Shown here: piece after piece, positions 29,724 through 32,042 of the stretch
How the letters are laid out: every line of letters starts with the position of its first letter
Numbering within the stretch: the stretch's first letter is position 1
NCBI GenBank assembly: GCA_947374315.1
Contig: CANCBK010000001.1
Span: 1 to 64,000 of the forward strand
Reading direction: 5' to 3'
DNA from: Burkholderiaceae bacterium
GTDB taxonomy: Bacteria; Pseudomonadota; Gammaproteobacteria; Burkholderiales; Burkholderiaceae
Length of the DNA stretch: 64,000 nucleotides
Notes under the pieces: model-generated
What the model was told of the DNA's origin: nothing
What the model saw: the letters and a program-made list of their open reading frames with translations, nothing else
Database searches by the model: none
Program-made: the position numbers and the translations under genes

Positions 29724-30277
29724 GCTTATTGCGCCAGCTAACCATTTCTACGGCAGTCTTGACCGCCTGCATCATCACGACAGCTCACGCTGAAAAAGCA
29801 GATCAAGATAAGCCCATTATTTTGGAAGCGGAAAAAGTTTCTGTAAACGATGTACAACAAGTCTATGACCTCGAAGGTAAAGTAGTTTTAATCAAAGGCA
29901 GCATTCTCATTACTGGCGAGAACGGCAACATCCAGGTTGATCCCGAGGGTTATGAATACGTTGATGTTCAAGCTAGCCCTGAATCCACTGCCAGCTTTAG
30001 ACAAAGACGCGAAGGGCCTGCCAATGAGTTCATGCAGGGGCGCGGTCAAACGGTTACCTACAACGCCAAGACCGAGCTGCTTACTCTCACTGGGGATGCC
30101 AGCCTGAAGCGCCTTCATAACATGCAAATGCTAGATCAGTTACGCGGCTGGAAAATTGACTATGACGATGTTTTACAACGCTATCAAGTCTTGCCACCCA
30201 CAGACGCTAAATCAGATGACCTGCCGCTGGCTAGGGCCATCCTTTCACCAAGACGGAAAGCTACACTAGAGAAATGA
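29720..30277 (+). CDS. lptA: LPS transport periplasmic protein LptA
   Basis: Forms the periplasmic bridge carrying LPS to LptD/E. 185 residues with a signal peptide (about 1-24, ending TTAHAEKA) and an OstA-type jellyroll: [38 protein letters not shown], and [23 protein letters not shown]. It overlaps lptC and lptB by four bases on each side, indicating a tightly coupled operon. Confidence 0.95.
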
Positions 30278-31041
30278 CCACGGATTCAAGCAGCCCCCAA
30301 AAACCAGCAACCCTTAGCGCTCAGCATCTCCAAAAGCGCTACGGATCTCGCACAGTAGTGCGAGATGTTTCGGTAGAGGTAAAGTGCGGCGAAGTGGTTG
30401 GGTTGCTAGGTCCTAATGGTGCAGGGAAAACGACCTCCTTCTACATGATTGTTGGTCTGGTTCCGCTGGATGGTGGCAGCATTATTCTGGATGGTACCGA
30501 TATCACCCACCTTCCGATTCATGAGCGAGCTCGCATGGGCCTGTCTTACCTACCCCAAGAGGCTTCTGTTTTCAGAAAACTTAATGTGGCTGAAAACATT
30601 CAAGCGGTGTTGGAGCTACAAGTGCAGGGCGGCAAGCCATTAAGCAAGGCGGAGATTGCACATCGCTTAGATGAACTCCTAGGTGAACTGCAAATTAGCC
30701 ATCTTCGCAATAATCCTGCGTTATCCCTATCTGGTGGCGAGCGCCGCCGCGTTGAGATTGCTAGAGCGCTGGCCTCCCAGCCTAAATTCATTTTGCTCGA
30801 CGAGCCTTTTGCGGGCGTAGACCCCATCGCCGTTGGAGAAATTCAGCGGATTGTGCGCTTCCTAAGAGACCGTCAAATTGGCGTCCTCATCACTGACCAC
30901 AATGTTCGTGAAACCTTGGGTATTTGCGATCACGCCTATATCATTAGTGAAGGCAGTGTTCTGGCGGAAGGTAAGCCAGACCAGATCATTGAGAATGACG
31001 CTGTCAGAAGAGTCTATCTCGGCGAAAACTTCCGCATGTAA
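30274..31041 (+). CDS. lptB: LPS export ABC transporter ATP-binding protein LptB
   Basis: Cytoplasmic ATPase powering LPS extraction with LptF/LptG. 255 residues, with Walker [19 protein letters not shown] (near residue 50), Q-loop YLPQEASVF, signature [15 protein letters not shown] (near 152), Walker [14 protein letters not shown] and switch [10 protein letters not shown]. The family-typical end is [10 protein letters not shown]. The following 185 bp carries no intact gene but a decayed rpoN fragment before hpf. Confidence 0.98.
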
Positions 31042-31079
31042 ATATGCTGGGTTTTCGACTATTTATTAAATAAACATGA

Positions 31080-31187
31080 TCTGCCCCCTTGGTTTTCAGC
31101 AAAATCGCTGATACGCTGGAGGTTCATGAAGTTCATTCCCATATAAACAAGTACAACATTGCAGGGGCCTGCTGCGCACCCCGGTAA
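31080..31187 (+). pseudogene. rpoN: Decayed remnant of rpoN (sigma-54), helix-turn-helix region
   Basis: Between lptB and hpf, where rpoN normally stands, one frame reads APLVFSKIADTLEVHE from 31083 to 31130, then a few unrelated residues and NKY at 31146-31154. This follows the sigma-54 DNA-binding segment, which runs roughly PLVLRDIADxLGLHESTISRVTTNKYM. The serine, threonine and isoleucine residues after HE are altered and about three codons are missing before NKY. The frame is closed by stops on both sides (a TGA just before 31080, TAA at 31185). The rest of the roughly 480-residue protein, including the RpoN box, is absent. I infer gene loss by deletion with a surviving scrap; the match is by eye. 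Confidence 0.7.
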
Positions 31188-31226
31188 TAATTTGCGCACG
31201 CATTTTGCTATGAATAGGAGCTGCTG

Positions 31227-31550
31227 ATGAATTTGAAAATTAATAGCCGTCATGTAGAAGTTACTCCAGCCATGCGAACCCACCTCGAAACCGGGTTAGC
31301 AAAAATTCGCAAACACTTTGACCATGTCCTAGATGCCTCTGCATTTTTGATCGTGGATAACGCCAAAGAAAAAGATCTTCGCCAAGCTGCCGAGATCACC
31401 ATTCACCTGAAAGGCAAGGAACTCTTTGCTGAGGCACATAATGCCGACCTCTATCACGCTATGGACGCAGTCGTCGATAAACTCGAGCGTCAGGTTGTAA
31501 AACACAAAGAGAAGATCCAGGACCATCATCACGAAAAGCATTTTGAGTAA
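31227..31550 (+). CDS. hpf: Ribosome hibernation promoting factor (short HPF/YfiA family)
   Basis: Binds the 30S subunit in stationary phase and stabilises inactive ribosomes. 107 residues: MNLKINSRHVEVTPAMRTHLE at the start, the beta-alpha-beta-beta-beta-alpha fold with LRQAAEITIHLKGKELFAEA, and ADLYHAMDAVVDKLERQVVKHKEK. The C-terminus is basic and histidine-rich (HHHEKHF). It lacks the extra dimerisation domain of long HPF. A good Shine-Dalgarno site (AGGAG, 31216-31220) precedes the ATG. It keeps the usual place before ptsN even though rpoN is lost. Confidence 0.95.
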   Translation: MNLKINSRHVEVTPAMRTHLETGLAKIRKHFDHVLDASAFLIVDNAKEKDLRQAAEITIHLKGKELFAEAHNADLYHAMDAVVDKLERQVVKHKEKIQDHHHEKHFE

Positions 31551-31583: not shown

Positions 31584-32042
31584 ATGAATGCCCTGACTGA
31601 TATTTTCACCCTAGACCGCATTGCCTTAAATAGTCCCTCTAAAAATCGGGCTGAGGCATTTGCGGCCGTAGGTGAGCTGTTTGCTAGACAATCAGGTCTT
31701 GAGGCTGAGGCAGTAGTTAGCTTCCTAAATGCACGCGAGGACTTAGGTTCTACCGCTCTAGGGGCTGGTGTTGCCATACCTCATGGTCGCGTTAAGGGGC
31801 TCAAGCACCCTATCGCAGCATTCGTAAGATTAAAAGAGTCTATTGAATTTGCTGCACCCGATGGCGAAGCTGTCTCTATTCTGATTTTTTTATTGGTTCC
31901 CGAAAAAGCGACCCAACAACACTTGGAAATTTTGTCTTCGATTGCACAACTCTTATCCGACCAAGACGCCCGCAAATCACTTGCGTCGGAAGAGAGTCCA
32001 GAAAAAGTGTGTCATCTCCTGCAAACATGGGGCTCCGCTTGA
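31584..32042 (+). CDS. ptsN: PTS IIA-like nitrogen regulatory protein (EIIA-Ntr)
   Basis: Phosphoacceptor of the nitrogen PTS (EI-Ntr to NPr/HPr to EIIA-Ntr), which regulates K+ uptake, stress and carbon/nitrogen balance by protein contacts. 152 residues of a PTS EIIA type-2 domain with the phosphorylated histidine in [12 protein letters not shown] (near residue 68) and [23 protein letters not shown]. The downstream hprK reading frame begins inside its 3' end. Confidence 0.95.

Follow-up and report, generated by a model that had tools for sequence, protein, structure and literature searches.

Between lptB and hpf, a Burkholderiaceae bacterium carries a short stretch of DNA that translates like part of the sigma-54 factor RpoN, which raises the question of whether it is debris of a lost gene or a part that has been kept for another role. 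The stretch belongs to the window analysed here, 64,000 nt of contig CANCBK010000001.1, in which the genes and spacer elements described below lie on the + strand. The upstream neighbour lptB (30274..31041) is an open reading frame of 255 aa that corresponds to LptB in the 34 related loci with both lptB and hpf. Downstream are hpf for hibernation promoting factor (31227..31550; an open reading frame of 107 aa, assigned also by synteny) and ptsN (31584..32042; open reading frame and synteny), the next gene of the presumed operon. The lptB stop at 31041 and the hpf ATG at 31227 are separated by a spacer of 185 nt. In the related loci with both genes the spacer measures 180-194 nt (34 of 34), and therefore leaves no room for rpoN. 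The related loci, 35 in all, were collected through the LptA protein from named Polynucleobacter or metagenome-assembled relatives, and L019 was dropped from the spacer sets because no hpf was found on its contig. A preliminary description of this DNA had read 31083-31130 as the helix-turn-helix (HTH) segment of rpoN, flanked by stops, and had seen in it a sigma factor at a late stage of loss. Its frame and coordinates proved correct: 31083..31130 reads APLVFSKIADTLEVHE, now non-coding, and the spacer frame from 31044 runs through ...SAPLVFSKIADTLEVHEVHSHINKYNIAGACCAPR into two stops, as claimed.

The piece descends from rpoN. Intact hpf-linked rpoN genes of the family, 41 in number (20 distinct 48-mers) and none from Polynucleobacter, supplied a 48-nt DNA profile. 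Its best place on both strands of the 64 kb was 31086, with 27.9 bits against -22.9 for the runner-up, a match that we regard as decisive. With the same profile, 82 of 83 rpoN-less lptB-hpf spacers, a set that includes repeat retrievals of some genomes, outscored every other + strand place of the window. A protein profile of the last 200 RpoN residues of 13 relatives ranked 31080-31184 first among 2966 six-frame segments of the window (E 0.035; next 1.7); this match falls at the one expected place and is weak by itself. In other rpoN-less spacers the protein profile gave 8e-8 (G349), 8e-6 (G049), 1e-4 (G028), 2e-4 (G064) and 0.005 (G020), while many Polynucleobacter spacers scored more weakly than the window and 25 of the 83 had no segment at E ≤ 1. 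The source is the sigma-54 DNA-binding domain (PF04552), of which no protein is encoded here any more.

Synteny and an intermediate form agree with the origin that the preliminary description had proposed. In sister lineages lptB and hpf flank an intact rpoN, which in G198, G173, G137 and G166 ends 10-15 nt before hpf; G344, G210 and G216 have the same gene order. The bridging intermediate between the intact gene and the remnant is G349, whose 419-nt spacer holds a recognisable rpoN pseudogene (tblastn 6e-12; PF04552 over cut-off) in which the HTH and the C-terminal end are still visible among several stops. The same genome possesses an intact rpoN elsewhere (G349:C1:1479175-1479642) in addition to the half-eroded copy at hpf (locus L120), and reads as a case of a sigma factor halfway through displacement or replacement. 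The triplet NKY at 31146-31154, put forward as a further remnant after the HTH, is not retained in all relatives and was rejected, independent support being absent.

The idea of a late stage of loss fared less well. The 75 spacers of the Polynucleobacter type reduce to 68 unique ones, and across these the HTH piece is nearly frozen: 31 of the 37 positions in 31086-31122 have a pairwise identity of at least 0.9, next to saturated fourfold sites, whose identity averages 0.38 over the 72 of lptB and 0.41 over the 17 of hpf. Graded decay, sought among the spacers of relatives, was not seen within Polynucleobacter. Of the original interpretation, descent from rpoN stands and loss in progress gives way to strong constraint: the piece is similar to rpoN above chance and lies at the ancestral locus, and it does not evolve as neutral or decaying sequence. 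None of the six positions in 31086-31122 with an identity below 0.9 is a third codon position, so the conservation does not serve a protein, and a short peptide encoded at the HTH was ruled out. No plasmid relatives of the spacer were found.

The conserved letters have the arrangement of a promoter. Every one of the 83 rpoN-less spacers contains a single copy of the motif TTGGWW-N17-TANNNT; the set leaves out nine loci (L129-L137) in which hpf has no lptB close by. The copy in the window's own spacer consists of a predicted -35 element, TTGGTT at 31089..31094, taken out of Leu-Val codons, and, 17 nt further on, a predicted -10 element, TACGCT at 31112..31117, taken out of Asp-Thr-Leu codons. 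With TGA at 31109..31111 directly before the -10, the copy falls within the 16-18 nt spacing, and has the TGN, of an extended -10 promoter of the RpoD type. From the -10 spacing, transcription would be expected to start in 31124..31128, where CATG (31125-31128) is invariant. In a comparison of seven lineages that lost rpoN, all seven retain TGN, and conservation was 0.90 for the -35, 0.90 for TGN and 0.78 for the -10, with 0.55 for the 14 nt between the elements and 0.38 and 0.36 for the flanks. From the motif to the hpf ATG the distance varies between 49 and 557 nt, as befits a promoter and not an element whose position is fixed by the start codon. A six-codon frame, MKFIPI, occupies 31126-31146, where the hpf transcript is expected to begin; GGAGG stands three bases before its ATG, and relatives strongly conserve this ATG and the GGAG but its codons less.

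How much weight the motif can bear depends on its background. Shuffled spacers contained it in 0.1-3.6% of cases, and it occurs three times on the two strands of the 64-kb window, so that the motif by itself is too common to serve as proof. Across 398 genomes of the family, a pattern scan found one copy of the element in each of 47 and none in the others. Each hexamer agrees with the sigma-70 consensus at three of six positions, and this partial match explains why a generic promoter scan of 30900-31400 returned no promoter-like site; the extended TGN may compensate for this. In the family-drawn genomes with hpf away from lptB (L129-L137), none of the nine loci had the motif within 400 nt upstream of the gene, and a relocated hpf can thus manage with another promoter, a point that tells slightly against the reading proposed below. 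The region upstream of hpf in these loci differs from that of the lptB-adjacent ones. Eight of the nine genomes lack an rpoN match, and G029 has one. In a separate hand-chosen set of 30 small genomes, five had no match to hpf.

The same signal is already written into intact rpoN genes. TTGGTT-17-TANNNT lies in the HTH codons of 55 of the 58 distinct family genomes in which rpoN is followed by hpf (61 rows, with three second retrievals, L175, L182 and L183), and in none of the 12 family copies without hpf next to them. The count is 12 rather than 13 because the contig of L069, nominally without hpf and carrying the motif, ends 77 nt past the gene. To lessen bias, 18 family loci from further down the list were added to the 30 best-scoring ones. 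In the draws across the class and the order, the motif was absent from all 38 loci that the search expression could read (35 linked to hpf, 3 unlinked; 22 of the 60 drawn were not readable). Among these outside genes, L227 has a -10-like TACACT and L214 has TTGGTT; no gene has both together. In all, 29 rpoN loci escaped the expression, the 22 from the wider draws and seven from the family. A further expression matched none of these seven. Re-reading of them gave TTGATT-17-TACGCT in L263 (G177) and ATGGTA-17-TACCGT in L122, from the same genome as L177 (G289), no motif in L174, L080 and L081, and no match in L082. The exceptions G137, G166, G216 and G289, in which an intact rpoN precedes hpf but does not carry the motif in its strict form, belong to one sister clade, and G173 of that clade has the motif.

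Codon choice in intact genes bears the same mark where base composition permits it to be seen. In all five high-GC loci examined, each of nine or ten genes, the HTH window ranked between second and fifth in codon atypicality among 2203-2334 windows, and the three lowest windows of each locus all lay at the HTH except for one kdsD window in L158. In all five AT-rich loci the HTH window was unremarkable (ranks 208-1947); with codons that are not unusual there, the codon argument rests on high-GC genomes. The single lowest codon window fell within six codons of the HTH in 40 of 50 high-GC3 family genes versus 0 of 28 outside genes, a comparison that left out L079-L082. A second dip in codon typicality, 61-62 codons past the HTH, has a mean z of about -2.2 in the 50 high-GC3 family genes and is not among the lowest offsets in the 28 outside genes; it is perhaps a second embedded signal.

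The same piece was retained in repeated, independent losses. Trees were built from nine neighbouring proteins (2042-2046 columns) with 25, 26 or 41 of 66 rows and no mixture model, the more careful ones, with 25 and 26 rows, under LG+G4. The lost lineages stand apart in these trees: Polynucleobacter with G263; G349; G339; G028, G049 and G064 together; G020; and G011. At least four changes of state are needed without the long-branched G011 and G033, and five with G011; another count also gave five. A regain of rpoN at the same spot would be unlikely, and counting losses only gives five without G011 and six with it, the placement of G011 being less sure on account of its long branch.

Taken together, we consider it highly probable that hpf is served by an extended -10 promoter in the spacer, read by the housekeeping sigma factor, that originated inside rpoN and was kept by selection. 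A simpler account, in which the HTH remnant was left by random deletions and is vanishing, has in its favour that the piece is a true rpoN remnant in small genomes, that G349 represents an intermediate stage, and that where hpf is gone from the locus no such piece stands upstream of hpf. We nevertheless judge it very improbable, given a sequence near-invariant in 68 unique spacers beside saturated fourfold sites, retention of the same part with a spacing of 17 in five to six independent losses, and a codon signature that intact high-GC genes already carry. Scarcely credible is that the resemblance to RpoN arose by chance or convergence, from a promoter whose translation resembles an HTH by accident: the E value of 0.035 at the protein level would leave room for this, against which stand the synteny, the intermediate pseudogene of G349 and the second remnant, from the rpoN 3' end, described below.

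More serious, and still unlikely in our view, is that the segment binds a transcription factor or regulates hpf in some other way, without being its promoter. Such a binding site, whether by itself or combined with a promoter, could give the same constraint, and the sequence from hexamer to hexamer is also conserved in Polynucleobacter, with the inverted repeat TCAGC-N6-GCTGA (31096-31111). Across the lost lineages, however, the hexamers and TGN persist at 17 nt and the sequence between them has diverged, and none of the six further lost lineages compared shows the inverted repeat. The repeat itself, which in the window and in many Polynucleobacter falls between the two predicted hexamers, could be an operator.

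Contrary to the preliminary description, by which everything else of the gene was missing, the last rpoN codons are also retained in Polynucleobacter, in the window at 31163..31202, where they are non-coding. Polynucleobacter spacers have GGGGC..GCTGCGCACCCC..TGCGCA.GCA where sister lineages have the last rpoN codons GGGACTCACTGCGCATCCC..TTGCGTAGG (RDSLRIPAMHLRR). A profile of this 3' end from seven intact copies scored 72 of the 83 spacers above all other + strand places of the window. The window's own site, whose row has a one-base gap, came third on the + strand and fifth over both strands, so that in this strain the second remnant rests on the alignment with relatives. It is present in G349 and absent from the lost lineages G339, G263, G028, G049, G064, G020 and G011. 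In the 68 unique spacers, 31164-31181 is conserved like the HTH piece save at 31168-31170.

If transcription starts near 31124-31126, as the -10 would predict, hpf has a leader of about 100 nt that includes this second remnant; the Shine-Dalgarno sequence of hpf, AGGAG, lies at 31216..31220, assigned from sequence and alignment. Within the leader, 31163..31202 may form an H-type pseudoknot, which we drew by hand by pairing 31164-31167 with 31179-31182 and 31170-31178 with 31193-31202. In 28 sequences, two intact genes and one pseudogene among them, 95.9% of cells were paired, compared with at most 69.2% in slid controls. Few pairs were variable; four changed on both sides, a number reached by 22 of 500 shuffles, and further pair types were no more frequent than in shuffles (274/500). 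Nested folding of the leader was no better than in shuffles (z 0.90). A known RNA family was ruled out by Rfam, which gave no match at E up to 1 in 30900-31400. A function of the hpf leader RNA in Polynucleobacter is possible, and a DNA dyad or inverted repeat would look alike.

Which sigma factor would read the promoter can be narrowed by gene content. The -10 element TACGCT resembles the -10 consensus of sigma-S. Among 24 genomes tested, six had rpoS (TIGR02394) over cut-off, and none of the ten of the Polynucleobacter type did, which rules out RpoS control as a general explanation and means that the promoter there must work without RpoS. The hpf promoter is likely read by the housekeeping sigma factor. 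Sigma-54 itself found no match over cut-off in many bearers: in the ten Polynucleobacter-type genomes first tested, PF04552 gave no match over cut-off and one below threshold, and of the 47 family genomes with the element, 36 had no PF04552 match over cut-off and 11 had an intact rpoN elsewhere. The locus has thus lost rpoN, but not every bearer is without sigma-54. Ten of these 11 distant copies were seen (L074-L077, L178-L181, L184, L185), and all lack the promoter codons. In two loci of the Polynucleobacter type, L169 and L170 (G186, G074), an intact rpoN lies away from hpf with much the same neighbours in both, some resembling CheW, chemoreceptor and bactofilin genes by eye; it may belong to a motility or pilus cluster that is either old or acquired. 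The window has 16 places like -24/-12 (sigma-54) promoters with at most one mismatch, against 8.9 expected, and one of 100 shuffles reached as many.

A promoter of hpf within rpoN has a precedent in Pseudomonas aeruginosa, for which Akiyama 2018 is reportedly the primary study. An excerpt of PMC7764885 states that hpf of P. aeruginosa is served by a separate promoter situated inside the rpoN coding sequence, as proposed here; exposure of the promoter by gene loss is not mentioned in that excerpt. Since none of the 35 hpf-linked rpoN genes of the wider draws has our motif, the promoter of P. aeruginosa must have another position or another sequence. Excerpts of PMC6755734 describe meningococcal and gonococcal rpoN-like sequences as degenerate, with the HTH lost and the RpoN box kept in 269 of 290 meningococcal isolates; degeneration is thus shared, whereas here the HTH codons are the part retained. 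In reduced Buchnera genomes, conserved spacers hold decaying pseudogenes together with retained regulatory elements (PMC3164680, in excerpt). Buchnera and the present case share the setting, spacers of shrinking genomes; here the retained element comes from within the lost gene itself and has outlasted several independent losses. In the open-licence literature, the titles and abstract openings among the matches listed did not describe the Burkholderiaceae promoter or its survival after rpoN loss.

We propose the following course of events. In Burkholderiaceae with rpoN adjoining hpf, codons for PLVLREIADTL in the sigma-54 HTH region would mostly be chosen so that the DNA also reads TTGGTT-17-TANNNT, and a promoter inside rpoN would give hpf a transcript of its own, probably serving ptsN-hprK-rapZ as well. 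Where rpoN is lost and lptB and hpf still adjoin, deletions would erode the gene on both sides, but selection for hpf expression would preserve a core of about 30-45 nt. Polynucleobacter would in addition have retained the last rpoN codons within the new hpf leader.

The broader statement, to which we give even weight for and against, is that in Burkholderiaceae the DNA of the sigma-54 recognition helix doubles as the hpf promoter, constrains codons in the larger part of the family and determines what remains after loss in place, and that Polynucleobacter recruited both ends of rpoN, one as a promoter and the other as a structured hpf leader. If this is true, repeated gene loss would have dissected out the same promoter, and apparent debris would become a natural experiment in which independent losses of the host gene reveal the part of its DNA that serves a neighbour. 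This would indicate a promoter lying inside a strongly conserved coding segment of a sigma factor and shaping the codon choice of a family, and would suggest a method for finding hidden promoters, namely to ask which part persists when a gene is lost. For the bacteria themselves, it would bear on how ribosome hibernation is kept up once sigma-54 is lost.
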